A stretch of 64,000 nucleotides of DNA, taken from positions 3,348,499 to 3,412,498 of the forward strand of contig NZ_CP039456.1 in assembly GCF_006974145.1 (NCBI RefSeq), in the 5' to 3' direction. The notes below the pieces were generated by a model. It saw nothing but the letters and a program-made list of their open reading frames with translations, was not told the DNA's origin and searched no databases. Each line of letters opens with the position of its first letter. Positions within the stretch are counted from its first letter, which is position 1. The position numbers were made by a program, and so were the translations under genes. The DNA is from Changchengzhania lutea. GTDB lineage: Bacteria > Bacteroidota > Bacteroidia > Flavobacteriales > Flavobacteriaceae. Of the stretch, positions 1,800 through 39,198 are shown in pieces.

Positions 1800-1811
1800 T
1801 GATATATATCA
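1800..1811 (-). promoter_or_regulatory. CRP/FNR-like box for the 1753 operon
   Basis: TGATATATATCA, a perfect 12-bp palindrome. It is followed after 24 bases by TACTTTAA (1775-1768 on the minus strand), a weak match to the -7 element TAnnTTTG. Confidence 0.6.
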
Positions 1812-1898
1812 ATTTAAAGTAATATTTCTGATAGTTTTCCTTGTTGTTTTCGTATTAAATCAGAAAGCTCTTCTCATAAAAAAGTCTTTAATCTAAAT

Positions 1899-2105
1899 TT
1901 AAAGATAAATGTCCTTGAGGGTTATTGAAATGATAATGGCTATGGCATTGTAGCCATTGACATAGCTTCCTATAACAGCATCGCAATCAGCCTTTAATGT
2001 TTCTACTGGAAAATTATTGAGCGCCCCACCATCAACATAATAAGAAACTTCAATTTTTACGGGCAATACACCAGGAAAATTACAATCAAGGCCACTTGCT
2101 CGAAA
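1899..2105 (-). pseudogene. Patatin-like phospholipase remnant
   Basis: Read on the minus strand, this start-less frame encodes about 68 residues including RASG, FPGVLPV, YYVDGGALNNFPVE and DAVIGSYVN, ending in TAA at 1901-1899. These match the region around the catalytic Asp (DGG) of patatin-like lipases, in the family order. The catalytic Gly-x-Ser-x-Gly half and the start are absent, and the frame is cut at about 2105 where the promoter region of the mla operon begins. It is therefore a decayed fragment, presumably left by a deletion. No function is expected. Confidence 0.7.
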
Positions 2106-2135
2106 TGATATTTATCAGACCAATGATTTTTATCA
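2106..2135 (+). promoter_or_regulatory. Two tandem CRP/FNR-like boxes for mlaE
   Basis: TGATATTTATCA at 2106-2117 and TGATTTTTATCA at 2124-2135. The proximal box is followed after 23 bases by a perfect -7 element TACATTTG at 2159-2166, and the start codon of mlaE is at 2187. Confidence 0.75.
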
Positions 2136-2186
2136 TTTCACGTATACCGCGATTGCCATACATTTGGATAGAATGCTATATTCAAT

Positions 2187-2969
2187 ATGTCAGGATTCGG
2201 TAATATACGTGCCCAATTAAAGGCCTTCTTAGTTGAAATTGGGGAGCTGTCCTACTTTACGGCACGTTTTTTTAACAATGTTTTCAAACCACCTTTTGAA
2301 TTGAAGGAACTATGGCGCCAATGCTATAATATGGGAAATCGCTCCTTAGTACTGGTAGGCATTACAGGTTTTATAATTGGACTCGTACTGACCTTGCAAA
2401 CCCGTCCAACCCTCATGGAATTTGGTGCCGTATCATGGATGCCGTCCATGGTCGGTATTTCTATCGTAAGGGAGATTGGCCCAATAATTACGGCCTTGGT
2501 CTGTGCTGGTAGAATTGGCTCCGGTATAGGTGCGGAACTGGGTTCTATGCGCGTAACAGAACAAATTGATGCTATGGAAGTGTCTGGAACCAACCCTTTC
2601 AAATATTTGGTGGTGACCCGGGCATTGGCGGTCACGTTAATGCTTCCGTTATTAGTGGTGGTAGGAGATGCGATTGCGTTATTTGGATCTTTTTTGGTTG
2701 AAAGCGTAAAAGGTAACGTCTCCTTTGTTCTCTATTTTAACAAGGTGTTCGATTCGTTGGAATTTGGTGACATTGTGCCTGCAACCATTAAATCATTTTT
2801 CTTTGGTCTGGCCATTGGCCTTGTGGGTTGTTTTAAGGGCTACTATTGTAAAAAAGGAACGGCTGGTGTTGGAAAGGCAGCAAACTCTGCGGTTGTTTTT
2901 TCATCATTGTTATTGTTTATTATCGATTTTATGGCTGTTTTGGTAACCGATATATTTTATGGTTTATGA
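2187..2969 (+). CDS. mlaE: MlaE-type lipid transport permease
   Basis: A 260-residue inner-membrane permease of the MlaE/YrbE family, with about five hydrophobic segments and the typical MVGISIVREIGPIITALVCA and RIGSGIGAELGSM segments. With an ATPase (MlaF) and an MCE-domain protein (MlaD) it forms a complex that moves phospholipids between the inner and outer membranes. The start is ATG at 2187. The stop overlaps the start of mlaF by 4 bases, which points to translational coupling. Two TGAT boxes and a -7 element precede it. A patatin-like phospholipase remnant lies just upstream. Confidence 0.92.
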   Translation: MSGFGNIRAQLKAFLVEIGELSYFTARFFNNVFKPPFELKELWRQCYNMGNRSLVLVGITGFIIGLVLTLQTRPTLMEFGAVSWMPSMVGISIVREIGPIITALVCAGRIGSGIGAELGSMRVTEQIDAMEVSGTNPFKYLVVTRALAVTLMLPLLVVVGDAIALFGSFLVESVKGNVSFVLYFNKVFDSLEFGDIVPATIKSFFFGLAIGLVGCFKGYYCKKGTAGVGKAANSAVVFSSLLLFIIDFMAVLVTDIFYGL

Positions 2970-3733
2970 CAGAGCTCCATAACATACCAGATAAAGAGGT
3001 TGTTCTTGAAATTAAAGGTTTGCATAAGGGCTTTGGAGATAACCATGTGCTTAATGGCTTCAATATGCAATTGTACCACGGTGAAAACTTAGTGGTCATG
3101 GGGAAGTCAGGTTCTGGAAAATCGGTGATGATCAAATGCCTGGTAGGGCTCATGGAAGCCGATAGCGGTTCTATTTCGGTAATGCACAGGGACATTACCA
3201 AACTGGATCAGGGTGCACTGGATACGCTACGAGCAGATATTGGCTTTTTATTTCAAGGCAGCGCACTATATGACTCCATGACTGTCCGAGAAAATTTGGA
3301 GTTTCCTTTACGGCGGCATACCAGAAAAAATGATCAAACCGTTGACACCGAAAAGTTGGTTGTTGAAGCTTTGGAAAATGTCGGTTTAGCGAGTGCCATC
3401 GATTTAATGCCGGCAGAACTATCTGGAGGGATGAAACGGCGAGTAGCTTTGGCAAGAACCCTTATTCTACGACCAAAAGTAATACTGTATGATGAGCCCA
3501 CTAGTGGATTGGACCCCATAACGGCCAAGGAAATTATTATCCTGATGCAGGACATTCAAAAAAAATATGGCACCTCCTCACTCATCATCACCCATGATGT
3601 GGATTGTGCACGGGTTATTTCGGATAGGATGATATTGCTCATAGACGGCATCGATTACGCTGTCGGAACATTTGCCGAATTATCAACCTTAAAGGACCCC
3701 AAAATTAAAGCTTTTTTTAAACAAGAACTATGA
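2966..3733 (+). CDS. mlaF: MlaF-type ABC ATPase
   Basis: A 255-residue ABC ATPase that powers the MlaEFD lipid transporter. Walker A is GKSGSGKS near residue 46, the Q-loop lies in FLFQGSALYDSMTV, the signature is LSGGMKRR, Walker B is VILYDEPTSGLDP, and the H-loop is IITHD. FQGSALYDSMTV and LSGGMKRRVALAR are characteristic of the MlaF subfamily. It overlaps mlaE and mlaD by four bases on each side, so the three genes form one tightly coupled operon. Confidence 0.93.
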   Translation: MTELHNIPDKEVVLEIKGLHKGFGDNHVLNGFNMQLYHGENLVVMGKSGSGKSVMIKCLVGLMEADSGSISVMHRDITKLDQGALDTLRADIGFLFQGSALYDSMTVRENLEFPLRRHTRKNDQTVDTEKLVVEALENVGLASAIDLMPAELSGGMKRRVALARTLILRPKVILYDEPTSGLDPITAKEIIILMQDIQKKYGTSSLIITHDVDCARVISDRMILLIDGIDYAVGTFAELSTLKDPKIKAFFKQEL

Positions 3734-4734
3734 GAGATACAGGCCCACAAAAATTACGGTTAGGACTCTTTGTCATCATAGGCACGGTTTTGTTTATTGT
3801 GGGTGTTTATGTAATTGGGCAGCGGCAAAACATGTTCAAAAAAACATTTGCAATAAGTGCTTTTTTTCAAAATGTAAATGGCTTGCAAAAAGGGAACAAT
3901 GTACGCTACTCGGGAATTGGCATCGGGACAATTAAAGAGATCGCCATGGTTAATGACTCTACAATCAAGGTAGACATGGCCATTGAAGAATTTATTGTGG
4001 CCCACATTAAAAAGAATGCCATTGCTACGATTGGCTCAGACGGGTTGGTCGGTAACATGATTGTCAATATCGTTCCGGGCAAGGGGAGCTCTGAAGCCAT
4101 TGGCAATGGCGATATTATTGAATCTTATAGCAAATTGGGAGCAGATGATATTTTGAGCACCTTAAGTGTGGGTTCTGAAAATGCCGCGATCCTTACCTCG
4201 GATCTATTAAAGATCACAACCGCTATGATTGAGGGCAAAGGTACTTTGGGTGTGCTATTGAATGATACGATCATGGCAGAAGGTTTAAAGCGATCCGTCA
4301 ACAACCTCAGAGTTGCTAGTAGAGGGGCAACAAATGCAATTAACGGATTAAATACAATCATCTCTTCGATAAAAACAAATGACGGCACCGTTTTGGGCAT
4401 GTTGATGAATGACACTATATCTGGCATAAAACTAAGAAACATTGTTGGTCATCTTGAAACCTCAAGTATTGAGATTGAAACTGTCTTGGCAAATATCAAT
4501 ACCGTTGTTGATGATTTCAGTTCTAGTGAAGGTGCCTATGGTTATATTCTAAAGGACACGTCTTTGGTCAATAATTTAAAGTCTGCAATCAAAAACATAA
4601 ATGAGGGCACAGATAGGTTCAACCAGAACATGGAAGCCTTAAAGCACAATTTTTTAACGCGAGGCTATTTTAGAAAATTGGAACGGCAAGAAAAAAGAGA
4701 AATGAAAAAAGGCGAAAATCAGAAAATACACTAA
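3730..4734 (+). CDS. mlaD: MlaD-type MCE-domain protein
   Basis: A 334-residue substrate-binding component of the Mla transporter. One N-terminal membrane helix (about residues 12-31) anchors it to the inner membrane. An MCE domain follows (about 38-115, with [20 protein letters not shown]), then a long, mostly helical C-terminal part of about 200 residues. This is longer than the 180-residue E. coli MlaD, as is usual in Bacteroidota. MCE domains form hexameric rings with a lipid-conducting pore. It is last in the operon. Confidence 0.9.
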
Positions 4735-4865
4735 AAACAAACTATTATTCCCAACGGATGATGCCGTAATGAAATCTGTCTTTTTAGCACTAAGAGAAAG
4801 CATTAAAAAATGGACAATTGCTATTAGAAATTAGGGCATCATATTAGATCAGTTTCTGGCAATCT

Positions 4866-4903
4866 ATAAAAAAAGGGTCAGACTTTAAGTAAAAGTCAAA
4901 CCC
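4866..4903 (-). terminator. Rho-independent terminator
   Basis: On the minus strand an imperfect stem (AGGGTTTGACTTT paired with AAAGTCTGACCCT, one A-C mismatch) with a short loop is followed by a run of T residues (4874-4867). It fits transcription ending after the minus-strand operon that stops at 4957. Part of it could also serve the mla operon from the other side. Confidence 0.65.
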
Positions 4904-4956
4904 TCGTTATTTTAAGTTACACACTTTTTAGGATAGTGTCAGTGAGTTCAGACCCA

Positions 4957-5265
4957 TTAATTTTCATCAAAACTCTCTAAAACCAATGGCAAATATTTTG
5001 ATGCAGCTTTCATTCCAATTACAGATAAACCTAAAAGAACCGTTGTTTTCATTTCTGGCCTTGTTGCTCCTGCATTCTTCGCCATTGGCACGTGCATTTT
5101 GACGGCTCTTTCATCATCTGCAATCATTTTCATTCCGATGTATATCAATTGCTTGGTTTTATTATCTAAACCTTCGTCTGCAATTAATGATTGAATAAAG
5201 CCTGCGTAAGCTCTTTGAATTTCAGGCGCTTCTTCAACAAATGTTTGTAATGGATTATTGTTCAT
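4957..5265 (-). CDS. Carboxymuconolactone decarboxylase-like protein lacking redox cysteines
   Basis: A 102-residue all-helical protein with the outline of the carboxymuconolactone decarboxylase/AhpD family (LDNKTKQLIYIGM, then MHVPMAKNAGATRPEM). In AhpD-like members a C-x2-C-x3-H motif carries out peroxidase chemistry. Here the two cysteine positions read Asp and Ala (DERAVKMH), while the His is kept, so thiol redox activity is not expected. It begins two bases after the stop of the PAF-acetylhydrolase-like gene and ends the operon, just before a terminator. Role unknown. Confidence 0.7.
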   Translation of the reverse strand: MNNNPLQTFVEEAPEIQRAYAGFIQSLIADEGLDNKTKQLIYIGMKMIADDERAVKMHVPMAKNAGATRPEMKTTVLLGLSVIGMKAASKYLPLVLESFDEN

Positions 5266-5266
5266 A

Positions 5267-6814
5267 TTATTTAATATTTAGATTTGAATAACTTATTGAT
5301 ATGCTTTCGTATTTATTTTCAAGCGCTTTGAGTTCTATTGGAATCTCTTTGATATACTTATCAAAAAATGATAATACCAAGGCTCTTTGTAATTCCATCG
5401 CATTTTTGTCGCCTTCGGTTATATATTTTAAGTCTGTAAAATTATCGTGAGAGAACCCATTGATGGTGATTTGATAGCAATCTTGTACAGCGTTTTCTAT
5501 AAATGTCAATGCTCTTAAATATTGATTTCCTTCTTGATTACTTGAAACAAACATAAATGGAACTTTGAGTTTGTTATGATACAAATCTCCAAATTGAAAT
5601 CCATCCAAATTTATTCCTGCCCTTATATCAGTGTTACCGGAACATATTTGCCCAGCAGTTGCTCCACCTAAAGAATGACCAAATATTCCTATTCTATCAA
5701 AATCGAATATGCTGTGGATAATTTCATCATTATTATGTATTGCCTTTATCTTCTCAAGTGCTACTTCCGTATCTGATGCCCATAAAGTTGTGCTTTCATT
5801 ATGTAAAGGAGTAAGTTGCAGCATTTTTCTATAGGCTTCTGCATTTTCTTTAATATCGTTTGAATTTAATATTGTGGATTGCCACCTCCCAATTTCCGAA
5901 CTATTTAATTCTGGTTCTCTTTTGCTATAAAATTCATTGTCAGTTGTGTTGCTAATAACCTCTCCGTTATCTTTTATAAGCAAAGCAGATTCGTTTTCGT
6001 GTCCAACACTTACAATAATATATCCATGACTAACAAGTTCTTCAAACACAGTTTGGTAAACTTGGGTAAAACCACCGTATCCATGATTATATATAAGAAC
6101 CGGAAATGTTTTATTAGAAACGGGTGGAGCATTTAAAATAGTATTACTCTCTATTTCAGAGAAATAACTGGTGGCAAAAGTTGGAATTCCTAAAAAATCA
6201 GAAGCATTTGAAATGACTTGTTTCGTTCTAAATGGTTCTTTTTCCTCAGAGAGTGAGTTCGTTGGGTACCAAATTTGAAATGAAAGAAGTCTTTCATTTC
6301 CTGATTGGGACTTATTGTAAAAAAAGGTGCGTTGTCCAACTTTATATTCACCTGTTGGGTCAAGCATTTTCGGCAACTCTCTTATTAATTCATCTTCTTT
6401 TCCAAAAGCAATTTCCAATATTTTAAAAATAGTGTTTTGTTTTGCAAATACAGCCTTGAAAGATTGCACAATATTTTCTGAGTTAACTTTCTTTGTTGTA
6501 AGCTTACCATACTCAAAATAAAACTGACCATTATAATTAGTTGAATCTACTTTGTATTCCACATTTTCGACATCATTTCTTGAAAATACAAACTCGTATA
6601 TAGAAACAATCTCACTTTTATTCTTTATTGGCATTAATTCAGTTGTATAAAAAATTGCGTTCTCATCAAAAATCAACTTTATTTCATTTAGATTTTTTGA
6701 ATTTTCAGCTTTTTCCAATCTCTTGATGAGTTGATTGCCTTTGTTCTTATGAGAGGCTTTATTATTGCAACTTACTACTAATAAAATTAAAAATACTCCT
6801 AAGATATTTTTCAT
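5267..6814 (-). CDS. PAF-acetylhydrolase-like lipoprotein esterase
   Basis: A 515-residue secreted hydrolase. The N-terminus is a lipoprotein signal (LLVVSC, Cys16). Residues about 28-140 look like an NTF2-like domain. The rest is an alpha/beta hydrolase of the platelet-activating-factor acetylhydrolase type: FPVLIYNHGYGG near 238-248 forms the oxyanion region, GHSLGG carries the nucleophile Ser381, and Asp404 (NLDG) and His456 (GFSHDNF) complete a plausible triad. It should hydrolyse short-chain esters or oxidised phospholipids at the cell envelope. It follows an S41 protease gene by about 50 bases on the same strand. Confidence 0.8.
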   Translation of the reverse strand: MKNILGVFLILLVVSCNNKASHKNKGNQLIKRLEKAENSKNLNEIKLIFDENAIFYTTELMPIKNKSEIVSIYEFVFSRNDVENVEYKVDSTNYNGQFYFEYGKLTTKKVNSENIVQSFKAVFAKQNTIFKILEIAFGKEDELIRELPKMLDPTGEYKVGQRTFFYNKSQSGNERLLSFQIWYPTNSLSEEKEPFRTKQVISNASDFLGIPTFATSYFSEIESNTILNAPPVSNKTFPVLIYNHGYGGFTQVYQTVFEELVSHGYIIVSVGHENESALLIKDNGEVISNTTDNEFYSKREPELNSSEIGRWQSTILNSNDIKENAEAYRKMLQLTPLHNESTTLWASDTEVALEKIKAIHNNDEIIHSIFDFDRIGIFGHSLGGATAGQICSGNTDIRAGINLDGFQFGDLYHNKLKVPFMFVSSNQEGNQYLRALTFIENAVQDCYQITINGFSHDNFTDLKYITEGDKNAMELQRALVLSFFDKYIKEIPIELKALENKYESISISYSNLNIK

Positions 6815-6863
6815 ATATTTTCTGTTTTATGTCTCTAATTTTTTCTAATTGAATAAAACACTT

Positions 6864-8138
6864 TCAATTGTTGTTTAAATATTCTATTGCCTTTAATAGT
6901 TGTGTGTCCTTGTCTTTTAACAAATCTTCTCGTTTCATTTCTATGGCGATATCAGGTGTAATTCCATTATTTTCTGGATTAAACCCATTTGGATATTCAA
7001 ACTTGTAAATTGGGATTACTAAAGCAATACTATCGTTTATTAAATATCCGTTTCCCCACAACATTTGACCGGGTGTTTGATTTCCAATAATTTTCCCAAT
7101 TTTAAAATATTGAATTATTCCTGCCATATTTTCTGCTCCCGAAATACTCATTTCATCAATTAATATAGCAACTTTGCCTTGATACTTACTGCCTATAGGT
7201 TCTATAAAATCTTCATTTTGTTCATTTCTATTGATATAAGTTCCGTATTTTCTCCTTTCTGAAACAAACCTACCGAGCAATAATTTCATAGCTTCAATTG
7301 AACCACCGTCATTTCCCCTTAAATCAATAATTAATCCCTTTGATTTCTCCACTTTTTCTAAATTGCTTAATACATGATCTAAATTGGCAGGATTAAAAGC
7401 ATTAAATGATAGGTAAGCAATATCCTTTGAAATAAAATAACTTTCAGAATGCAAGAAGGCTAGTGGCAATCCACCACCTAATGATATTCCGTTTTGTCTT
7501 TCTGTTCGTGTTAATATTTCAGAATGGGATTTATTATGTTCATCTAAAAAGACTAGTTCAACCCTTGTCCCTGATTGACCATAGATTAGCCTTAAAACTT
7601 CTGATGTAAGATGAAATGTTCTATTTATATCATTGAACGGTGGTTTGAATTTTACTAGCTTTTCGATTTCAGATAGTGTTAAACTTTCAATTCTTTCAAT
7701 AATGAAACCTACATTAATATTTGCAATGTCTGCTGAAAAGTTTTTTAATACCTTTGTAACTACTATTTGATTTTTAATAACTCGGATATCAATTCCTATT
7801 TCACCATTACTAAATATATATGGTGACACTGTTTTGTTTAATTCAGATATTAACCCAACACCACAATGAGAGCTATTAAGTTCAAATAGCATTATATTTA
7901 GTAATGAAAAAAGGGAGTCGGTGTTATTACAAGCTTCAATTTGGGCTTTGTAATCCATATGCTTTTTCTCCCAGTCAATTCCATTAAAATTTGGGTCATA
8001 GAAATGCTCGTTAACAGTATTCCAAACCTGTTCAAATATTTCAATTCTTTCGCTCTTTGCCATTCCTGTTTCTTGTGATTGACAAGAAGTGAAGAGAAAA
8101 GGGCTTATAAAAAGAAGTATGTATGTAAGTTTGTTCAT
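6864..8138 (-). CDS. S41 family peptidase, lipoprotein
   Basis: A 424-residue protein with a lipoprotein signal (FLFTSC, Cys19). It is a C-terminal-processing-like serine peptidase (S41). Visible family marks are KGLIIDLRGNDGG (about residues 267-279), LIDEMSISGAE (about 326-336, holding the catalytic Ser), and a final ITPDI segment typical of the family. No clear PDZ domain is visible, so it fits the tricorn/retinol-binding-protein-like S41 group common in Bacteroidota. The start shares one base with the stop of the CPBP protease gene, so the two are co-translated. Confidence 0.82.
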   Translation of the reverse strand: MNKLTYILLFISPFLFTSCQSQETGMAKSERIEIFEQVWNTVNEHFYDPNFNGIDWEKKHMDYKAQIEACNNTDSLFSLLNIMLFELNSSHCGVGLISELNKTVSPYIFSNGEIGIDIRVIKNQIVVTKVLKNFSADIANINVGFIIERIESLTLSEIEKLVKFKPPFNDINRTFHLTSEVLRLIYGQSGTRVELVFLDEHNKSHSEILTRTERQNGISLGGGLPLAFLHSESYFISKDIAYLSFNAFNPANLDHVLSNLEKVEKSKGLIIDLRGNDGGSIEAMKLLLGRFVSERRKYGTYINRNEQNEDFIEPIGSKYQGKVAILIDEMSISGAENMAGIIQYFKIGKIIGNQTPGQMLWGNGYLINDSIALVIPIYKFEYPNGFNPENNGITPDIAIEMKREDLLKDKDTQLLKAIEYLNNN

Positions 8139-8863
8139 TATCTAAATTGAATTATAAAAAAAGCAAACTGTATGCCGTCATAAAGGGCGTGAGATACTAT
8201 TAACGGTAATAATCTGCGATATTTATAAAAGTAAAAACCCATAATGACACTTTTAAGTCCTATAGAAATTATTCCAGCAGTTCCTTGATATAAATGGGCT
8301 ACTCCAATTAGTGCAGAAGCCAAAAATATTGCAGCAATATGCCAATTCTTGTTGTCATTAATATTCCACAAGCATTTTAATAAAAACACTCTGGATAATT
8401 CTTCAAAAAGTGCAATACCAATCCATAAAACAGGTCCAAACCAAATAATCATTAACAACGGATTATTTGCCAAATCAATCATTGTATTAATCAATTCGGT
8501 GTTTGGCGGATTTTCATTGGGTATCCATTGATAAAGCGTTGCTCTTTCTAAAAAGAACAAAGCAAAATAGATTGCAGTTAAACCTAAACCTATTAAAGTA
8601 TCCCAATACCAAGTTCCTTTACCAGAATTAAATGTTTCTTTAAATGTATCCCTTATCAAGTACTTATTAAGAAATAAAATCAGAAGGCTTATACCAGCAC
8701 CAAAAATCAAAGGATAAACTGTCATATCAGTTGTCGAGAAATTTTCAGTTTGTGTCAGTCTATACCAAATCATTATGATATTGATTGGTAAAATTGCAAT
8801 GCTGATTGCTAAAATATTTCGTAATGTTTTATTCATTCTTTCTTGGTTTTCCAATGACTCCAA
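8138..8863 (-). CDS. CPBP-family intramembrane metalloprotease
   Basis: A 241-residue protein with about seven membrane segments. The CPBP (Rce1-like, ABI) core is seen as EELSRVFLL near residue 155, GVAHLYQG and SHALYDGIQ. Glu and His residues in these motifs form the membrane-embedded metal site. The first motif reads EExxR rather than the usual EExxxR, a small deviation. Substrates are unknown. In bacteria such proteins are linked to bacteriocin self-immunity or prenyl-protein cleavage. It overlaps the preceding membrane-protein gene by 35 bases. Confidence 0.78.
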   Translation of the reverse strand: MESLENQERMNKTLRNILAISIAILPINIIMIWYRLTQTENFSTTDMTVYPLIFGAGISLLILFLNKYLIRDTFKETFNSGKGTWYWDTLIGLGLTAIYFALFFLERATLYQWIPNENPPNTELINTMIDLANNPLLMIIWFGPVLWIGIALFEELSRVFLLKCLWNINDNKNWHIAAIFLASALIGVAHLYQGTAGIISIGLKSVIMGFYFYKYRRLLPLIVSHALYDGIQFAFFIIQFR

Positions 8864-9314: not shown

Positions 9315-9324
9315 GGTATACTAT

Positions 9325-9900: not shown

Positions 9901-9959
9901 TATACTGTGTTTTAGATTAAAATTTAATCAAAAGTATAATTGCACTATGGTTGACACAA

Positions 9960-9971
9960 TGATATTAATCA
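9960..9971 (-). promoter_or_regulatory. CRP/FNR-like box for the 9900 operon
   Basis: TGATATTAATCA, followed after 23 bases by TACTTTTG (9936-9929 on the minus strand), a perfect TAnnTTTG -7 element. A degenerate second copy, TGATATTGGCCA, lies at 10008-10019. Confidence 0.78.
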
Positions 9972-10048
9972 GTGTAGAGATACATAAATTGAAACCTGTT
10001 TACAAAATGATATTGGCCAGTGACGCCCCATTAATAAGACTTTTTTGG

Positions 10049-17314: not shown

Positions 17315-17326
17315 TGATAATTATCA
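17315..17326 (-). promoter_or_regulatory. CRP/FNR-like box for the 17266 gene
   Basis: TGATAATTATCA, a perfect palindrome, followed after 23 bases by TATCTTAC (17291-17284 on the minus strand), a partial -7 match. The first three bases lie inside the stop-proximal end of the metallophosphoesterase gene. Confidence 0.6.
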
Positions 17327-23380: not shown

Positions 23381-23392
23381 TGATATCCATCA
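23381..23392 (-). promoter_or_regulatory. CRP/FNR-like box for the 23320 gene
   Basis: TGATATCCATCA, followed after 23 bases by TAATTTTA (23357-23350 on the minus strand), a near match to the -7 element. Confidence 0.7.
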
Positions 23393-23955: not shown

Positions 23956-23967
23956 TGATATTGCTCA
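23956..23967 (-). promoter_or_regulatory. CRP/FNR-like box for the 23904 gene
   Basis: TGATATTGCTCA (one half perfect, one half imperfect), followed after 23 bases by TAATTTTA (23932-23925 on the minus strand). Confidence 0.6.
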
Positions 23968-24054
23968 TTTTTAGTTTTATTGAATCAACCGAGGCTTTAC
24001 TTTTATGACTTATGTCACATAATAGTCTTTACAGAACAGTTATTTTTACGTGTA

Positions 24055-24429
24055 ATGAAAATAAGCAATGGTATCATTTCATTTTTATTGGCAATAACCC
24101 TGTTGCTAAACGCTTTATATGTAAGCGTTACATATGCTTATTATAATATTGATACTTTGGGTTTTATTGAGAAATTATGTAAAAATAAGGATGCGCCCGA
24201 ATTGCAGTGTAATGGAAAATGCCATTTAAAAAAAGTTTCTCAATCTCAAAATAAAGAACAAAAAACACCAGAAAGCATAGATTTTAAAGTGTTATTGCTT
24301 TACATAAACACTGTTACAAATCACTTGTTTTTGCAACAAAACGCTTCAACAAAACAAATAGTTATAGCATACCAAAACCTATATTCTTTCTCGAGAATAA
24401 AAGTTTGTTTCCATCCCCCACAAGTATAG
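24055..24429 (+). CDS. Small Cys-rich membrane/periplasmic protein beside copper receptor
   Basis: A 124-residue protein starting at ATG 24055 (MKISNGIISF). It has one N-terminal helix or uncleaved signal (about 5-28), then LCKNKDAPELQCNGKCHLKK, where three Cys and a His form a possible metal site. I recall similar short proteins upstream of copper-type TonB receptors in Flavobacteriaceae. It ends 80 bases before the receptor, on the same strand. Metal sensing or delivery is inferred from context only. Confidence 0.55.
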   Translation: MKISNGIISFLLAITLLLNALYVSVTYAYYNIDTLGFIEKLCKNKDAPELQCNGKCHLKKVSQSQNKEQKTPESIDFKVLLLYINTVTNHLFLQQNASTKQIVIAYQNLYSFSRIKVCFHPPQV

Positions 24430-28467: not shown

Positions 28468-28764
28468 TTAATAATCTTCATAAAGACGCAGCCTGTTATG
28501 TAATGCGTTAATTTCTTGCTTTAAAAAATCGACTTGCTTTAGTAAGTTACAAATGGCATCAACACCTTCTAAGTTAATATCCAAACCATAATGCAATCGT
28601 ATTATTTTTTCAATGTCCTTTATTTGTGTGGTATGAATATAATAATTGTCTTTTTCAGCTATCAATTCTATAAGTTGAAACTCCTGCAACATACTCATAA
28701 AAGATACTGGAACTTCATAGCGCTTACATATTAACTTTACGGGTATTAGATCTTGTGCCTCCAT
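28468..28764 (-). CDS. cbpM: CbpM chaperone modulator
   Basis: A 98-residue MerR-HTH-like protein. LIPVKLICKRYEVPVSFMSML and LHYGLDINLEGVDAICNLLKQV match the CbpM group, which binds the J-domain of CbpA and inhibits it. It is two bases downstream of cbpA, the family's usual partner, so the call is strong by context. Confidence 0.85.
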   Translation of the reverse strand: MEAQDLIPVKLICKRYEVPVSFMSMLQEFQLIELIAEKDNYYIHTTQIKDIEKIIRLHYGLDINLEGVDAICNLLKQVDFLKQEINALHNRLRLYEDY

Positions 28765-28766
28765 AA

Positions 28767-29654
28767 TTAGCGTAGTTTTTGTAACTTTTCTATCAGTGTT
28801 TTTTCTTGACCAGTAAGTTTAGTGGGTGTTTTTATTTGGTAAGTGATATATAAATCACCAAACTGACCTTCTTTTTTATACTTGGGAAAACCTTTTCCTT
28901 TAAGTTTTACTTGCGTACCGTTTTGAGTTTCTGGTTTTATGTTGAGTTTTACTTTTCCATCAAACGTGTCAACCATAAGCGTGCCTCCCAATAAGGCTGT
29001 ATATAAATCTAAATCTACGGTTATGTGCAGATTAGCCTTATCCCTTTTAAATTTAGAATGGTTAATGATTGAAAACTGAATAATTAAATCGCCATTGGGT
29101 CCGCCATTGACCCCTTTACCACCGTGACCTTTAATTTTAATGATCTGTCCATTTTCTACACCGGCAGGAATGGTAATTCTAATGTTTTTACTGTTAACTG
29201 TTAAGGTGCGTTTGTGCGTGGTGTAAACATCTTTTAAGTCCAGTTTTAATTCGGCATTGAAATCCTGACCTCTAAATTGAACTTGTCTACCACGCCCTCC
29301 TGAAGATGCACCACCAAACATGTTCTCGAAAAAATCTGAAAAATCTTCTTGAGAAAAACCTCCTGAAGCACCTTGATAACTGCTTTGATATTGCCGTTGT
29401 TGTTTTTTTGCTTTCTCGTATTCCTCCCCATGCTGCCAATGTTCCCCATATTGATCGTATTTTTTTCTATTTTCTGGATTGCTCAACACTTCATTGGCTT
29501 CATTGATTTCCTTGAATTTCTTTTCGGCAACTTTATCGTTGGGATTTAAATCTGGGTGGTATTTGCGTGCTAATTTCCGATACGCTTTTTTAACATCCTT
29601 TTCTGATGCTGTTTTTGTAATGCCCAATATTTTATAGTAGTCAATAAATGACAT
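28767..29654 (-). CDS. cbpA: CbpA-like DnaJ co-chaperone
   Basis: A 295-residue J-protein. The J-domain (about 4-68) has the HPD motif in [11 protein letters not shown] Gly/Phe/Gln-rich linker (about 85-125) is followed by two C-terminal substrate-binding domains and a dimerisation end. There is no cysteine zinc finger, so it is CbpA-type rather than DnaJ. It stimulates DnaK and in some bacteria binds curved DNA. It heads the operon cbpA-cbpM-mscS. Confidence 0.9.
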
Positions 29655-30382: not shown

Positions 30383-30394
30383 TGACATATATCA
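30383..30394 (-). promoter_or_regulatory. CRP/FNR-like box for the 30325 gene
   Basis: TGACATATATCA, followed after 23 bases by TAATTTTA (30359-30352 on the minus strand). Confidence 0.7.
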
Positions 30395-31163: not shown

Positions 31164-31164
31164 G

Positions 31165-32427: not shown

Positions 32428-33506
32428 TATTCTGGTTTATAGATGTATGTGTCTTTGGTAATTCCTGATTTTACTTCTATGAAATCCATATTCTGTAACC
32501 CTGTTGATATGGTTGTTAACCCGTCATCAGTTTTTACTTTATTAGCATCAATTAAATACGTTTTGGGAATTGTCAACACGGTATCCTTTTGTGCTATAAT
32601 AATATTGGCTTCACCAGAAAGCCCAGGATATAAAACACTTGGAGCTATATCAAAAATAGCTTCCACTTTAAAGGTTTGGTTGCGTTCATCTTTTTTAGGA
32701 TATATTTTTGATACTTTTCCTGTGAAAACTTTAGCATTATAGGCATCTAAATTTATAAGGACTTCTTGGTTTTCTGAAATGTGAACAATATCAACTTCAT
32801 CAACCAGCATTTCAATCACAAAAGTAGTTGCGCTGCCAATAGTGGCCAAGGGTTCTAGAGTCGATACAATTTCTCCGGGCTCTTTGTATAAAGCGTATAC
32901 TTTCCCGTTTATCTTACTTTTTACAGTAAAATCTTTGGTATTAATCAATGCTGTTTGATACATGTTTTGTGCCTGTTTAACAAGTGTTTGCAATTCGTTT
33001 CTGGTATTATAATATTTGTTTTGAATCGTTTTTAAATTGTTTGAAGCCAGTTGGTAATTAAGTTTTTTGGTATCGTAGTCCACTTTGGAACCAATATTCT
33101 GTTCCCACAGATTTTTTTGCCTGAAATAGTTAATTGAATCATTTTTAAGTTTCAGCTTTGCCGAAGCTATTTCATCTTCAATATTGCTTAAAATGGCGGC
33201 ACTTCCGTTATAGTTCTCTTTAGCCAGTTCTAAAGTGAATTTTGCATTTTGAGTGTTCAGTTTTGGTGCTTTATTTATAATTTGAATCAAGGGCTGATTT
33301 TTTAAAACGTTATCGCCTTCTTCTACCAAATTATCATCTAAAATACCCGCGACAATGGCATAAGCCTGATATAAGCTATCGGGTTGAACGGTTACAGAGG
33401 AATACACAGATTCTGTTAATGCGCGTTGTTCAGGGAGAATTTTGTCTTCTTTATTAGAGCAAGACACTATGATTAATAGTACACCATATAATCCAATGGT
33501 TTTCAT
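32427..33506 (-). CDS. Efflux periplasmic adaptor (MacA-like), lipoprotein
   Basis: A 359-residue membrane-fusion protein with lipoprotein signal (IVSCSNKED, Cys16), split lipoyl halves (LVEEGDNVLKNQPLIQI and SKINGKVYALYKEPGEIV) around a coiled-coil hairpin of about 90 residues, and a beta-barrel domain. It should bridge the MacB-like ABC permease to an outer-membrane channel, not encoded here. It is first in the operon. A half-conserved TGATAT site lies at 33553-33542, but no good -7 element follows. Confidence 0.85.
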   Translation of the reverse strand: MKTIGLYGVLLIIVSCSNKEDKILPEQRALTESVYSSVTVQPDSLYQAYAIVAGILDDNLVEEGDNVLKNQPLIQIINKAPKLNTQNAKFTLELAKENYNGSAAILSNIEDEIASAKLKLKNDSINYFRQKNLWEQNIGSKVDYDTKKLNYQLASNNLKTIQNKYYNTRNELQTLVKQAQNMYQTALINTKDFTVKSKINGKVYALYKEPGEIVSTLEPLATIGSATTFVIEMLVDEVDIVHISENQEVLINLDAYNAKVFTGKVSKIYPKKDERNQTFKVEAIFDIAPSVLYPGLSGEANIIIAQKDTVLTIPKTYLIDANKVKTDDGLTTISTGLQNMDFIEVKSGITKDTYIYKPE

Positions 33507-33608
33507 ATGATTAAATTTGTTTTATCTCGTAGACTAATGGGTATCAGATATCACTTTCACACAATCGTTTTTTGTGTAAATGGAATTTTATTGATGGATG
33601 TTTTATTA

Positions 33609-34694
33609 TTAATAAGCCAATTTAGTTTGTAATAATATATATTCATTTAGGTTGGTGGCATCGATAACGCCAACCAGTTTTTCTTGATCTACAACTGGTA
33701 TAAATGATTTTTTTCCATCATAAATTAGCTGATATGTTTTTTTGAGGTCGTCTGTACTTTTAACGGTCTTAAAAGTGATATCCATAATATCTTTAACCAA
33801 AACATTTTTATTGGAGTTGTCAATAATGTTTTTATGGTATAAGATGCCTACAACTTTGTGGTCTTTAACTACAACAAAATTAGTTTCGGTGCCAGATATT
33901 ATTTTATTAACAACCAAATCTAAGGCGTCTTCTGGACTGAAGGTGGTTATGTTTATTATCATGGCTTCTTCTATTGTGTGGTCCTTGAGCAATTCTAAAT
34001 GTTGTACCATTTGATTTTCGCCATAAGCACCTAAAAAAATAAACAGTGCAATAATGACTAAAAAGGGGTTGTACAATAAACCTATTAATAAAAAGAAAAC
34101 TGCGATAACTTGCCCTACACTAGAGGCAATTTTAGTAGCCTTAACACGACTCATTTTCATGGCTAATAATGCTCTTAAAATGCGCCCGCCATCCATTGGA
34201 AACGCCGGGATGCTATTAAAAAGGACCAACCCTACATTAACTATAAATAAATAAAAAAGAAAATTTTGTAATGTAAAAGCCATTAATACATCAAAGGTTT
34301 CTGTAAAATTTAAATCCATATATTCATTTACAGGTACGATAAAATATAGGAGTAACGCAATTATGATATTAACCAATGGGCCGGCCAAGGTTACCAAAAG
34401 TTCTTGTTTTGGAGATTCTGGAATACGCTCCAAACTTGCCATACCACCAATGGGCAATAAGGTTATTTTTTTAGTGTCTATGCCAAACCTTTTAGCAGTT
34501 AAAGCATGGCCTAATTCATGCAATACCACACATGCAAAAACAGTTAAAACCAGTGCGACATTAAAGAATATACTTTCGTTAGTGCCTCCTCGTTTTAATT
34601 CGCTAAAAACAATCCAGGCTATTAAAAAAAAGAAGGTCCAATGTACTATGATTTTAATGCCAGAAATACTTCCTAAATTTAGATTTGCTTTCAT
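33609..34694 (-). CDS. Site-2 protease with CBS domains
   Basis: A 361-residue M50-family intramembrane metalloprotease. The zinc motif HELGH is at residues 59-63 and the third ligand lies in FPMDGGRILRALLA. About six helices are followed by a pair of CBS domains (about 240-355), which can bind adenosine ligands. Such S2P-CBS proteins cut membrane-bound regulators, and they occur in hypoxia-linked gene clusters of other phyla. No TGAT box is visible upstream. Confidence 0.88.
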   Translation of the reverse strand: MKANLNLGSISGIKIIVHWTFFFLIAWIVFSELKRGGTNESIFFNVALVLTVFACVVLHELGHALTAKRFGIDTKKITLLPIGGMASLERIPESPKQELLVTLAGPLVNIIIALLLYFIVPVNEYMDLNFTETFDVLMAFTLQNFLFYLFIVNVGLVLFNSIPAFPMDGGRILRALLAMKMSRVKATKIASSVGQVIAVFFLLIGLLYNPFLVIIALFIFLGAYGENQMVQHLELLKDHTIEEAMIINITTFSPEDALDLVVNKIISGTETNFVVVKDHKVVGILYHKNIIDNSNKNVLVKDIMDITFKTVKSTDDLKKTYQLIYDGKKSFIPVVDQEKLVGVIDATNLNEYILLQTKLAY

Positions 34695-34705
34695 TTAAAA
34701 GGATT

Positions 34706-35311
34706 CTAGTTATTAATAGATACAATACTCCATTTTTTATTCTCGTCTAAAACTGCATAGAGATTATTAGAAATCTTTTCAGAAGTAATTTTAGGTGGCG
34801 TGCGCAGAAATTTCTTATCTAAAGCTATATTAATTCCTTTTGGGTTTAAAAAGTCTTTAATGTTTCCATCAGTATCTATTGTGACTTCGTAATATCTGTG
34901 ATATACTATGTTCTTACCTAACAACTCATTCTTACCGAGTTTCTCTTTAATCACGTGTAATACCAAAGCTTTGTCATTATCGAAGTTAGATGCATTTAAA
35001 AATTTTGGTTGTATTATCGTTTCACCTTTTTTATCTATATAGCCAAAATAGGTGATGCCGGCTTTCTTTTCTGAAATTAAACACCTGCCATCTTTAAAAA
35101 TAGGGTAACGACCATCATCAAATTTGGTTAAAACTAAATCGTTTCTAAAATCTATAATAATGGCGCCTTTATCATTTACAAAACCCCAGGAATTATCTTT
35201 TTTAATGGCAGCTACACCGTCGTACATGGGTGCTACAAAGTCTAGGGCTTTTGTAGTTTGTGTAAAAGCAAGGACAGGAATAATTAATAAAATAATTAGT
35301 ACTTTTCTCAT
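34706..35311 (-). CDS. WG-repeat secreted protein
   Basis: About 201 residues from ATG 35311 (MRKVLIILL), which begins a proper signal peptide and lies 20 bases after the predicted transcription start. WG-type repeats are visible: GVAAIKKDNSWGFVNDKGAIII and YFGYIDKKGETIIQPKF (given in outline). WG repeats form beta structures of unknown binding role and are common in Bacteroidota exported proteins. A TGATATTCATCA box precedes it. Confidence 0.72.
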   Translation of the reverse strand: MRKVLIILLIIPVLAFTQTTKALDFVAPMYDGVAAIKKDNSWGFVNDKGAIIIDFRNDLVLTKFDDGRYPIFKDGRCLISEKKAGITYFGYIDKKGETIIQPKFLNASNFDNDKALVLHVIKEKLGKNELLGKNIVYHRYYEVTIDTDGNIKDFLNPKGINIALDKKFLRTPPKITSEKISNNLYAVLDENKKWSIVSINN

Positions 35312-35366
35312 GAGTAAATATTTAAAGTTAATATTTAAAAGTATCATGTTTGTTTGTTCTACAAAA

Positions 35367-35378
35367 TGATATTCATCA
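35367..35378 (-). promoter_or_regulatory. CRP/FNR-like box for the 35311 gene
   Basis: TGATATTCATCA, followed after 23 bases by TACTTTTA (35343-35336 on the minus strand). Confidence 0.72.
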
Positions 35379-35390
35379 TGAGTTGTGATT

Positions 35391-35690
35391 TTACTGATGT
35401 TGTTTTATTACTGAGATAATATCATTTTTTTGTAGAACACCAGATTGTCGCCAAAGCTGTTTTCCGTTTTTAAAAAGGATCATGGTTGGAACACCTCTAA
35501 CTTGATATTGAGCTGCTAAGGATTGATTTTTATCCACATCAATTTTAATGATTTTTATAGAATCATCAAGCTCATGTTTAACTTCTTTTAAAATAGGTGC
35601 TAGCATTTTACAAGGACCACACCAATTGGCATGAAAATCGATTAAAACGGGTGTTGTAGAATTTATAATCGTATTGAAATTATTTTTCAT
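35391..35690 (-). CDS. Thioredoxin
   Basis: A 99-residue thioredoxin with the active-site motif WCGPC at residues 23-27 and the cis-proline loop VRGVPTMILF. It is cytoplasmic and reduces protein disulfides. Its start lies inside the end of the preceding gene (11-base overlap), so it is translated with the helical protein upstream. Confidence 0.92.
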   Translation of the reverse strand: MKNNFNTIINSTTPVLIDFHANWCGPCKMLAPILKEVKHELDDSIKIIKIDVDKNQSLAAQYQVRGVPTMILFKNGKQLWRQSGVLQKNDIISVIKQHQ

Positions 35691-36105
35691 GGGACTTTAT
35701 TTTCTTTAGTTCTATATCCAATTTTGCGAGCATGATTAATTCTGATTTGTTTATTCCAGAAAATGATGCTGCTATGGCACTGGCTGTTTTTAAAATAAGT
35801 TGCTTTACTTGATTTGTAAACAGATGCTGTTGTTCATTTTTGAAATTTACAAAATCATCAAAACATTTTTTTGCATTTATCGCATTTTCTTGATTTAGAT
35901 GATTAAAAACGAATTCTATTTGGTGGGCTGCATCAGTATTAAATCTGTTATTTGTATCATTTATCTCTGGCCATTGTTGTCTTATTAATGCTTTTAATTT
36001 ATCAAATTCCACTTCGCGCACTTGCTTATCTGCTGCTGCTATGGCATAAAATAACTTGCCGAGGTTTTGATAAAACTTGAGTGTCAATTTCTTTTTAGCG
36101 ACCAT
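35680..36105 (-). CDS. Uncharacterised helical protein, TerB-like
   Basis: About 141 residues from MVAKKKLT (36105); a start three codons further up is also possible. The all-helical layout with FYQNLGKLFYAIAAADKQVREVEF recalls TerB-like proteins (AxADGxVxxxE), but the acidic metal residues are incomplete. It is co-transcribed with thioredoxin, and shares a divergent regulatory box with the LOV kinase. Role unknown; stress-linked by context. Confidence 0.6.
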   Translation of the reverse strand: MVAKKKLTLKFYQNLGKLFYAIAAADKQVREVEFDKLKALIRQQWPEINDTNNRFNTDAAHQIEFVFNHLNQENAINAKKCFDDFVNFKNEQQHLFTNQVKQLILKTASAIAASFSGINKSELIMLAKLDIELKKIKSHEK

Positions 36106-36158
36106 TTTAAGCAAAGTTGAATTTTAGTAAAATTACATACATGTTTTTTATTTTTATA

Positions 36159-36170
36159 TGATATAAATCA
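36159..36170. promoter_or_regulatory. Shared CRP/FNR-like box, divergent promoters
   Basis: TGATATAAATCA. On the plus strand it is followed after 23 bases by TACTTTTA (36194-36201) for the kinase gene. On the minus strand it is followed after 23 bases by TAATTTTA (36135-36128) for the TerB-like/thioredoxin pair. Equal spacing on both sides is strong evidence that one palindromic site serves both promoters. Confidence 0.8.
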
Positions 36171-36228
36171 GTATAAATATAATGGATTTTTCATACTTTT
36201 AATGTACCATCCAAAAGCATAATTTTTT

Positions 36229-38109
36229 ATGTTTCCGCAAGACCAACAAATATTCAATATTCTTTTAGAAACCGTCTCAGATGGCGTTATCATTGTTGAT
36301 AATCATCAAAAGATTATGGAGGTTAACACCTCTGCAGAATATATTTTTGGATATGCTAAAAGTGATCTCATTGATAAAGATTTAAATTTACTGCTCCCTT
36401 CAAATTATCATAAAAGCCATTCAGGGTATTTTGAAAAATTCACCCAAAGAGGTAAGCGTCGAAAAATGGGTGAAACCACTGATATTTTTGCTTTAAAAAA
36501 AGATGGGACTATTTTCCCAATAGAGGTTGAATTGAATCCTTTTACCATATACAACCAAACCTATGTTATGGCTTTGGTTAAGGATGTTTCAGAAAAAAAG
36601 GAGATTGAAAAAAACCTCATGCTTCACTCTAAAGCTTTACAATCTGCCAACAATGGTATCATTATTACCGATGCTTTAAAACATGATAATCCGGTTATTT
36701 ATTTTAATTCGGCTTTTCAAAAGCTTACCGGGTATTCTGAAAAGGAAATACTAAATCATAATTGCAGGTTTTTGCAGGACAAAGACAGAGACCAAAAACC
36801 ACTTAAAAAACTTCGTGAAGCTATAAAAAATGGTGAGAGCTGTCAAGCAACACTCCGCAATTATAAAAAGGACGGTACCATGTTTTGGAATGACTTGTTT
36901 ATTTTTCCGATAACAAATACTCAAGGCACGGTTACAAACTTTATTGGCATACAAAATGATGTGACGCTGAGAAAAAAAGCTGAGGCAGAACAACACCACC
37001 TAGCGACTATTTTTGATGAGTCTTTGAATGAGATCTATGTTTTTGATGCTAAAACATTAAAATTTATAAATGTAAACTTCGGAGCACAAAAGAATATTGG
37101 GTATACTTTAGAGGAATTAAAGGAGATGACACCTTTGGATATTACAACGATTGACAGTAAAATTGAATTTATAAAAACTATTGAGGTCTTACTGAAAAAG
37201 AATGTAGAAAAAATAGAGTTCGAGACGGTACACCGTCGTAAAGATGGGACTATTTATCCGGTGGATGTACATTTGCAGTTATCAAACTTGGGTGAAAAAA
37301 ATGTTTTTGTGGCCATCATTTTAGATATTACCGAACGTAAAAACTACACCACAAAACTAGAATACAAAGTTGAAGAGAGAACGCAGCAACTTCAAATCGC
37401 GCTTAGTAAAGAAAAAGAGCTTAATGAATTAAAAACTAATTTTCTATCCTTGGTTTCGCATGAATTTAAAACCCCTTTAAGTGGCATTTTAACCTCGTCT
37501 TTATTATTGAGTAAATATCAATTAACTGAGGACCAACAAAAACGCGATAAGCATATTAAAATAATTACAGATAAAGTACATTTTTTAAACAATATTTTAA
37601 ACGATTTTTTATCGGTAGAAAAACTGGAGAGAGGTAAAGTGAATTATAGGTTTAGCCATTTTAAACTGAGCAAGGTTGTTAATGAGGTAGTTTATGATGC
37701 CAACATGCTTTTAAAAGAAGGACAACAAATTAAGTACCCAGAAAATATTGATGATTTATCGCTTTACCAAGACGAAAAAATTATTCAGCTGATATTCTTT
37801 AATTTAATCCATAATGCCATTAAATATTCATCTGAAGGCACAGTTATAAGCTTAAATCTTAAGCAGGATCAAAACTTTACGACGTTTGCTATAAAAGATG
37901 AGGGGATAGGCATTCCAGAAAAAGATCAAAAAAATATTTTTGAACGCTATTTTAGAGCAGAAAATGTTATTAATACACAAGGTACGGGCATAGGCCTAAA
38001 CATTGCTAAAAACCACTTAGAAAATCTGGGAGGCTCTATATCTTTTGCAAGCAAAGAACATGTTGGCTCAACCTTTACAGTAACTTTTCCAAATACAGTA
38101 AACTTATGA
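36229..38109 (+). CDS. LOV/PAS hybrid sensor histidine kinase
   Basis: A 626-residue cytoplasmic kinase without membrane helices. PAS 1 is at about 8-122, and resembles the FixL PAS but has no His at the heme-ligand position. The second domain (about 128-245) is a LOV domain: NCRFLQ with the photoactive Cys179, then NYKKDGTMFWN and FIGIQND, the flavin-contact residues. PAS 3 covers about 255-370. HisKA has His411 in VSHEFKTPL, and the ATPase has N-box HNAIKYS, DEGIGIP and GTGIGL. It should sense blue light or redox state through FMN and phosphorylate the response regulator, whose start overlaps its stop (ATGA). Confidence 0.88.
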   Translation: MFPQDQQIFNILLETVSDGVIIVDNHQKIMEVNTSAEYIFGYAKSDLIDKDLNLLLPSNYHKSHSGYFEKFTQRGKRRKMGETTDIFALKKDGTIFPIEVELNPFTIYNQTYVMALVKDVSEKKEIEKNLMLHSKALQSANNGIIITDALKHDNPVIYFNSAFQKLTGYSEKEILNHNCRFLQDKDRDQKPLKKLREAIKNGESCQATLRNYKKDGTMFWNDLFIFPITNTQGTVTNFIGIQNDVTLRKKAEAEQHHLATIFDESLNEIYVFDAKTLKFINVNFGAQKNIGYTLEELKEMTPLDITTIDSKIEFIKTIEVLLKKNVEKIEFETVHRRKDGTIYPVDVHLQLSNLGEKNVFVAIILDITERKNYTTKLEYKVEERTQQLQIALSKEKELNELKTNFLSLVSHEFKTPLSGILTSSLLLSKYQLTEDQQKRDKHIKIITDKVHFLNNILNDFLSVEKLERGKVNYRFSHFKLSKVVNEVVYDANMLLKEGQQIKYPENIDDLSLYQDEKIIQLIFFNLIHNAIKYSSEGTVISLNLKQDQNFTTFAIKDEGIGIPEKDQKNIFERYFRAENVINTQGTGIGLNIAKNHLENLGGSISFASKEHVGSTFTVTFPNTVNL

Positions 38110-39164
38110 AAACAGTTTTACTTATAGAAGACGATATTGTTTTAAGAGAAAATACAGCCGAACTTTTGGAGCTAGCGCATTACAAAGTACTAACGGCTTC
38201 AAACGGCAAAGTAGGCATAACTTTGGCAAAAAAACACCTACCAGATATTATTGTATGTGATATTATGATGCCGGAACTAGATGGTTATAGCGCCCTGAAA
38301 ATACTTTCTAAAAGCAAAACAACTAAACACATTCCTTTTATATTTTTATCCGCAAAAACAGAGCGCTCCGATATAAGGAAGGGCATGAATTTAGGGGCAG
38401 ATGATTATATAACCAAGCCATTTTCTGAGGACGATTTGATTAGTGCTATTGAGAGTCGTTTAGCAAAGGTTTCGATTCTAAAAGATTTAGGGAAAAAACT
38501 TCATAATATAACAGAAGAAGTTCATGAAGAAGATGAAATAAAAACACTCAATGAGTTAAAAAACTTTTTTGATGATTATGGCGATGAATTTGAGTTTAAT
38601 AAAGACGATGTTATTTATCATGAAGGCGACCATTCTAATTATATATATCTAATAAATCGAGGCGCTGTAAAATGTTATAGGATTGATGAACAAGGTAAAG
38701 AACTTGTAACCGCACTGTATAAAGAAGATGATTTATTTGGTTATACATCCTTTACGCAAAATATAGCCCATAAAGAAACCGCGACAGCCATTGCAAACAC
38801 TAAATTATTTGGGGTTTCAATTATAGAATTTAATACTATTCTTGATAAAAATCACAAAGTAGTATTAGAACTTATAGAATTATTAACCGATGATTTGTCT
38901 GTTATCAAAGAACAACTCTTACAAATGGCCTATGGTTCGGTAAATAAAAAAACAGCGGATACTATTTTAAAATTTGCAGAAAAAATAAACAAAAAACCAG
39001 GTGACCCTATTCAAATCTCTCGAAACGATTTGGCAAGCGTTGCAGGCATCGCAACAGAAACTTTAATTAGAACCTTAACATTATTTAAAAAACAGGGCAT
39101 AATTGAAATAAATGGCAGGAATATTAAGGTAGTAAACCTGGATAGATTGAAAAGAATTAATTAG
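38106..39164 (+). CDS. Response regulator with CRP/FNR-type output
   Basis: A 352-residue protein: receiver domain (1-120, phospho-acceptor Asp52 in VCDIMMPELDG, Lys in YITKPFS), cyclic-nucleotide-binding-like fold (about 150-265) and CRP-type HTH (about 280-340). The recognition helix reads TETLIRTL, keeping the Glu and Arg that in FNR and CRP contact TGA, while the FNR Ser is Ile. There is no FNR iron-sulfur cysteine set, so control by phosphorylation is likely. It is translationally coupled to the LOV kinase. It is the best candidate to bind the TGAY-N4-ATCA boxes in this window. Confidence 0.88.
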   Translation: MKTVLLIEDDIVLRENTAELLELAHYKVLTASNGKVGITLAKKHLPDIIVCDIMMPELDGYSALKILSKSKTTKHIPFIFLSAKTERSDIRKGMNLGADDYITKPFSEDDLISAIESRLAKVSILKDLGKKLHNITEEVHEEDEIKTLNELKNFFDDYGDEFEFNKDDVIYHEGDHSNYIYLINRGAVKCYRIDEQGKELVTALYKEDDLFGYTSFTQNIAHKETATAIANTKLFGVSIIEFNTILDKNHKVVLELIELLTDDLSVIKEQLLQMAYGSVNKKTADTILKFAEKINKKPGDPIQISRNDLASVAGIATETLIRTLTLFKKQGIIEINGRNIKVVNLDRLKRIN

Positions 39165-39186
39165 ATTAATATTAGATTTTATAAAA

Positions 39187-39198
39187 TGACATTTATCA
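39187..39198 (+). promoter_or_regulatory. CRP/FNR-like box for the Usp gene
   Basis: TGACATTTATCA, followed after 23 bases by TAAATTTG at 39222-39229, a perfect TAnnTTTG -7 element. The start codon of the universal stress protein is at 39251. Confidence 0.8.

Follow-up and report, generated by a model that had tools for sequence, protein, structure and literature searches.

A TGAY-N4-RTCA promoter box, a FixL-like kinase and a CRP-type response regulator in Changchengzhania lutea: a probable low-oxygen regulon in Flavobacteriaceae

Rhizobia possess the FixL-FixJ-FixK and hFixL-FxkR-FixK systems together with FnrN, and FixK and a Cys-containing FNR act there on one anaerobox, TTGAT-N4-ATCAA (PMC7888657). 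In mycobacteria (DosR/DevR) and Streptomyces (OsdR), Usp and heat-shock genes are under two-component hypoxia control, and most Usp genes of Streptomyces lie near the regulator genes (PMC5069765). The present study concerns 64,000 nucleotides of Changchengzhania lutea (assembly GCF_006974145.1, contig NZ_CP039456.1; hereafter the window), that is, bases 3,348,499-3,412,498 of a 4.13-Mb one-contig genome, in which a short box, TGAY-N4-RTCA, precedes promoters around the genes of a sensor kinase (36229..38109, + strand) and of a response regulator whose receiver is joined to a CRP-type output (REC-CRP; 38106..39164, + strand). We consider it likely that the boxes serve as operators for a regulon of survival and respiration at low oxygen, and that they would be read by two activators, an FNR-like protein (L021) and the REC-CRP regulator phosphorylated by the FixL-type kinase.

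Several features recall the rhizobial arrangement (PMC7888657): the kinase has a PAS of the FixL type, one anaerobox would be shared by an activator of the CRP type and an FNR with Cys residues, and the cbb3 oxidase is a core target. Unlike in rhizobia, no FixJ or FxkR step is present, the receiver being fused to the CRP-type activator itself; the partner adjacent to the kinase is REC-CRP and not a LuxR-type FixJ, and some of the kinases carry a LOV domain. The regulons of FNR and ANR have hemN, cbb3, pfl and Usp genes among their targets, and the system described here agrees with them in box core, class II-like position and such targets, but differs in that its second reader would be a response regulator and in its promoter element, which is of the Bacteroidota type. 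As in LOV histidine kinases, a LOV domain with the conserved Cys stands ahead of HisKA/HATPase; unlike in these, a FixL-like PAS precedes it, and most of the kinase family has no LOV. The literature, judged from titles and the openings of abstracts with most subscription papers out of reach, offered nothing on the REC-CRP regulator, the box or the regulon in Bacteroidota; for CRP/FNR homologs of Flavobacteriales, carbon sensing (MalR-like) has been predicted in one study (PMC8510549). What we describe is known parts in new wiring.

The promoter box in the window, the genome and the family

On both strands of the window the 12-mer TGAYNNNNATCA was matched 25 times, against 6.2 in shuffled sequence (largest value 15). 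The composite TGAY-N4-RTCA-N23-TAnnTTT was found 10 times, whereas 200 Markov simulations averaged 0.035 and never gave more than 1; the excess over shuffled sequence, on which a preliminary description of this DNA had made its proposed regulon depend, is thus present. In Bacteroidota the consensus of the -7 element is TAnnTTTG, and class II sites have their box centre near -41.5; the class II-like placement put forward earlier is supported computationally. At seven of the ten composite sites the assigned start codon follows the end of TAnnTTT by 14-30 bases, while one of the other three lies 322 bases from its start codon and two have no assigned open reading frame (ORF).

Throughout the genome, a scan of the kind proposed as a check returned 51 composite sites, against a single one for a reversed-pattern control, and when the spacer in front of TAnnTTTG was left free between 8 and 38, as many as 20 of the 37 matches fell at spacer 23. 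The 51 sites comprise the 10 of the window, 11 in a second island (3.863-3.886 Mb), two in a divergent palindrome between a NiFe hydrogenase and hypA, and 28 scattered ones. Targets without a Pfam call being named by reading the sequence, the second island contains Usp genes, Hsp20, a beta-CASP nuclease, a ferritin-like protein, a P-type ATPase and a copy of mlaEFD, and the scattered sites precede ccoSN (cbb3 oxidase), hemN, pflB, pta, PFOR/KOR, hemA and a nosZ-like gene as well as genes for HPF (ribosome hibernation factor), a cytochrome c, a CBS-pair protein and others; one scattered site, within a long ORF, is probably due to chance, and two have no assigned ORF. All 30 genomes inspected, from the 114 in which ccoN was matched, have a box at the ccoN promoter. 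The regulon announced in the preliminary description is therefore real, but it is not local, spanning genome and family, and, judged by its targets, it looks like an oxygen-limitation programme.

The family-wide extent was followed in the 80 closest named loci among at least 546 relatives listed (1,558,815 bases in total). These 80 REC-CRP loci hold 374 composite sites, at least one per locus, whereas each of the other spacers from 0 to 49 gave 1-44. A target ORF could be assigned for 336 of the 374 sites, families being defined by clustering and Hsp20 by reading. With own sites removed, Usp-like genes stand behind 163 sites in 75 of the 80 loci; 42 sites in 41 loci belong to the short ORF which, in the window, diverges from the kinase gene; next come ccoN-like (14 sites), DnaJ-like (9) and Hsp20-like (7) genes, and MlaE, thioredoxin, HPF and hemN lie behind a few sites each. 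The Usp-like and Hsp20-like sites around the regulator orthologs recall the DosR dormancy regulon; DosR is a NarL/LuxR-type regulator, unlike the present one with its CRP-type output and another box. A grouping of many Usp genes around the regulator is likewise shared with DevR/OsdR (PMC5069765). The TGAT-N4-ATCA core of the FNR/FixK anaerobox is found here, but its outer T before TGA is not, that position being C in 208, A in 139 (C or A in 347 of 374), T in 16 and G in 11 of the sites. The kinase ORF is immediately upstream of the regulator in 78 of the 80 loci, while a strict box immediately before the kinase gene was found in four; the autoregulation suggested earlier thus has its box in the window, but in a form that is not widely conserved.

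Within the window, all eleven gene starts named in the preliminary description do have a box upstream, and at 10 of the 11 promoters the gap to a TAnnTT(T)-like element is 23, gene 1753 having 24. The list was right in all eleven cases but missed two sites, at 24006 (+) and 2106 (-), and its consensus TGAY-N4-ATCA does not hold before gene 23904-23452, where the box is TGAG-N4-ATCA (TGAGCAATATCA, 23956..23967, - strand, gap 23 to TAATTTTA). Also on the minus strand are TGATATATATCA (1800..1811, gap 24 to TACTTTAA), upstream of gene 1753-1253, the first of the two missed boxes, TGATAAATATCA (2106..2117, with TAATTTTC at gap 23), 322 bases upstream of the same gene, and the boxes upstream of an OMP beta-barrel gene (9900-9325; box 9960..9971, gap 23 to TACTTTTG), a Pyridox_ox_2 flavoprotein gene (17266-16811; box 17315..17326, gap 23 to TATCTTAC), a DUF6799 gene (23320-22670; box 23381..23392, gap 23 to TAATTTTA), a gene for 150 amino acids without Pfam match (30325-29873; box 30383..30394, gap 23 to TAATTTTA) and a WG-repeat gene (35311-34706; box 35367..35378, gap 23 to TACTTTTA). 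The plus strand carries the box upstream of mlaE (2187-2969, mlaEFD being 2187-4734; box 2124..2135, gap 23 to TACATTTG), the other missed box, TGACTTATGTCA (24006..24017, gap 23 to TATTTTTA), which is followed by an ATG at 24055, a short ORF to 24429 and then a TonB receptor, and the box upstream of a Usp gene (39251-40105; box 39187..39198, gap 23 to TAAATTTG). The palindrome at 36159..36170 is shared, as had been described, by the divergent promoters of gene 36105-35680 (without Pfam match, a thioredoxin gene at 35690-35391 standing next) and of the kinase gene, with a gap of 23 on either side. Four further matches to the 12-mer (16196, 17161, 36297 and 38843) lie within ORFs and have no box-N23-TAnnTTT promoter.

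The mlaEFD genes with their promoters (window 2074-4697) are 99.9% identical to the second-island copy (L305, 5341-7964), and 193 bases at the end of the Usp gene (window 40052-40244) have a 99% match in that island; there has been recent exchange between the two islands. The window island also contains a MerR_2/DnaJ pair (CbpM/CbpA-like) and an M50 peptidase with a CBS domain (window 28468-29654 and 33609-34694), and in some relatives boxes precede DnaJ-like and, as read from the sequence, M50-like genes. To the right of the regulon, window 40681-62080 is a zone of mobile elements with pieces of ISL3-type transposases, a tyrosine integrase with an IS91-type transposase, three group II intron reverse transcriptases, an SRA/PvuRts1I-like restriction enzyme and another integrase. 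Two ORFs of about 700 amino acids (window 46037-48130 and 53140-55263), each adjoining an ORF of about 130 amino acids, are without Pfam match.

Candidate readers of the box

The regulator encoded from 38106 has PF00072, PF00027 and PF13545 above cut-off (REC-cNMP-HTH_Crp). Aligned to CRP, its recognition helix keeps the Glu and Arg that read TGA, as had been stated before, the first Arg being replaced by Thr; the Glu and Arg are invariant in 42 of 42 aligned sequences, and so are, in this alignment, the phospho-acceptor Asp52 and Lys104 of the receiver. The cAMP pocket of CRP is formed by Gly-Glu and Arg-Ser, which the alignment to CRP shows not to be kept in the 38106 protein. A structure predicted from the 42-row alignment reached a predicted local distance difference test (pLDDT) of 78.5 and a predicted template modelling score (pTM) of 0.54 with CRP/FNR as its fold matches, the arrangement of the domains in the model being uncertain. 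REC-CRP is very likely to bind the boxes.

Of the five CRP-family proteins found in the genome with PF13545 and PF00027, Glu-x3-Arg is found only in the 38106 protein and in L021, whose gene is about 2.7 kb from ccoN. As regards Cys residues for a [4Fe-4S] cluster, L021 has an N-terminal CxxC and further Cys, in a spacing that differs from the FNR pattern, and its best NCBIfam match is Fnr, below cut-off; it is FNR-like and probably shares the boxes as a second regulator. The preliminary proposal of the 38106 protein as the reader is thus plausible by computation, but it would probably not be the only one. Of the refuting condition set beforehand, that another FNR/CRP protein binds the sites and the 38106 protein does not, the first half probably applies and the second very likely does not. 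In five genomes (G061, G071, G110, G121 and G133) the FNR-like gene and ccoN have a REC-CRP gene between them, within about 10 kb.

To weigh the two candidates, 149 family genomes were scored for an FNR-like protein, a full-length REC-CRP response regulator and boxes, the latter as TGAT..ATCA and TGAC..GTCA at N23-TAnnTTT with mixed boxes left out, and 148 remained once the genome of the window was set aside. On average a genome had 16.7 boxes with both regulators (n=34), 10.2 with REC-CRP but no FNR-like protein (n=30), 6.9 with the FNR-like protein but no REC-CRP (n=55) and 2.1 where both were absent (n=29), the second and the last of these groups differing at p=1.3e-8, a value that ignores kinship. 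A regression with genome size and interaction gave +7.0 boxes for REC-CRP (t=5.0), +3.7 for the FNR-like protein (t=2.9) and 2.3 for the interaction (t=1.3), so that box number depends on either regulator. In seven genomes with REC-CRP alone, 22 of the 60 boxes fetched lie within 10 kb of its gene, where 0.42 would be expected, and without G036 and G129 the figures are 15 of 45 against 0.33; a ccoN box was among the fetched sites in five of the seven. Twenty sites read in genomes with REC-CRP alone gave hemN four times, Usp twice and no ORF three times, and twenty in genomes with the FNR-like protein alone gave hemN and Usp once each. Glu-x3-Arg was present in 15 of 15 REC-CRP proteins of 14 genomes of the former kind, and in one of the 14 other CRP-family proteins read there. 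Since FNR-lacking genomes keep boxes and these are clustered at the regulator gene, it is most likely that REC-CRP reads the box unaided and can take over FNR-type targets.

Several observations weigh against this reading. A weaker homolog of FNR (E 1e-31 to 1e-38) is present in nine of the genomes scored as FNR-lacking, and in G129 a further CRP protein (L381) has Glu-x3-Arg; without these genomes the contrast is 9.3 (n=22) against 2.1 (n=27), p=6e-7. The proteins read in the 14 genomes are 29 of the 40 CRP-family matches over cut-off; the genomes are relatives, and p values overstate their independence; and boxes occur in genomes lacking REC-CRP too. Moreover, TGAT has the same share, 0.64-0.68, in each of the four groups, and the site logos hardly differ, so the sites of the window's genome are not assignable to one regulator.

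We regard it as unlikely that the FNR-like protein is the sole reader, with the REC-CRP pair of the cluster using another operator. The anaerobic targets, the place of the FNR-like gene near ccoN, the same Glu/Arg in L021, the boxes of genomes with the FNR-like protein alone and the similar logos would suit it, but FNR-lacking genomes hold the boxes counted above, also by the stricter definition, many of them near the REC-CRP gene, and in five of the six examined among those seven genomes no other CRP protein with Glu-x3-Arg was seen among the proteins read.

A division of labour was also considered, with TGAT..ATCA boxes belonging to REC-CRP and TGAC..GTCA boxes to the FNR-like protein, an idea that the first sample from the window's genome seemed to fit; it is ruled out by the constant TGAT share and the agreeing logos. 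The regulator-linked sites are richer in C at -1 (208/374), and in the logos compared C at -1 stands at 14/60 versus 24/60 (p=0.077).

The sensor kinase: FixL-like PAS and LOV

The kinase of the window consists of a FixL-like PAS1, a LOV domain, PAS3, HisKA and HATPase. The best PDB matches of the N-terminal PAS1 are FixL (E 1.1e-13, and 2.2e-15 for the one relative tried), and His64 of the window's PAS1 aligns with the haem-ligand His of FixL. Of 77 aligned kinases 75 have this His, namely all 62 that lack the LOV Cys and 13 of the 15 that possess it, the window kinase being among the latter. The FG-loop Arg of FixL stabilises bound O2; it is kept in 56 of the 62 kinases without the LOV Cys and in five of the 15 with it, and in the window kinase it is Thr84, a substitution that makes oxygen sensing by the window's PAS1 uncertain and counts against the low-oxygen reading.

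The LOV domain contains NCRFLQ with the adduct-forming Cys, and LOV photoreceptors head its PDB matches. Of 79 kinase rows, 16 have a recognised LOV, including a Cys-less copy in L030, whereas L037 is a short ORF in which LOV could not show; the haem His of FixL is lost in L031 and L032. On the tree LOV needs 4-6 changes and is nested among LOV-less kinases, and its association with the loss of Arg, clear by counts, does not reach significance when independent pairs from that tree (three) are compared. Judged by sequence comparison, the LOV of the window kinase is real, the kinase family is FixL-like, and light control, if any, would be derived.

The preliminary description had seen here a stress regulon under light or redox control, in which LOV would be the main input and blue light the signal. 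The regulon and the LOV domain with its Cys stand, and the photoreceptor matches together with the loss of the FixL Arg from 10 of the 15 kinases with a LOV Cys lend such a reading some appeal, but 63 of the 79 kinases beside the same regulator have no recognised LOV and boxes are present nonetheless, the part common to the kinases is a FixL-type PAS, the targets are largely respiratory and anaerobic, and the link with Arg loss has the limit given above. With LOV in so few kinases, light is not the general signal, and we think light as the main input improbable. A bolder idea, which we offer tentatively as possible though doubtful, is a sensor swap in progress: in one flavobacterial clade an oxygen-sensing kinase of the FixL type would have gained LOV while its haem PAS decayed, with loss of the Arg and, in two relatives, also of the His. 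The low-oxygen regulon would now be gated by blue light or flavin redox, through an unchanged box.

Proposed mechanism and its meaning for Flavobacteriaceae

In the scheme that we favour, with two activators at one operator, a CRP/FNR-type dimer on TGAY-N4-RTCA, centred near -41.5, would recruit RNA polymerase to the TAnnTTTR promoter of Bacteroidota by class II activation, activation being the direction that we infer. Low oxygen, suggested as the signal by the kinship with FixL and by the targets, would switch on the kinase; the kinase would phosphorylate REC-CRP, and the phosphorylated dimer would take the box and activate in class II fashion, with the FNR-like L021 acting at the same box. 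With the kinase and REC-CRP, two proteins would thereby suffice for a task that takes three in FixL-FixJ-FixK, and in the lineage of the window, which gained LOV and lost the FixL Arg, the switch may be modulated by light or flavin redox.

Binding of the boxes by one of the other CRP-family proteins, L023, L349 or L351, is highly improbable, for these proteins exist in the genome but none has the Glu-x3-Arg pair. An origin by chance or from base composition, for which one might invoke an AT-rich window (34% GC) that makes half-elements common, has next to no probability and is refuted by the window and genome controls and by the single spacer that stands out.

For the oxygen response of Flavobacteriaceae, the analysis offers a promoter grammar, TGAY-N4-RTCA, 23 bases and TAnnTTTR, together with a list of targets. 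Species without the FNR-like protein would allow the two-component branch to be studied alone, and one operator with two regulators, seemingly interchangeable between genera, makes a testable case of regulator turnover.

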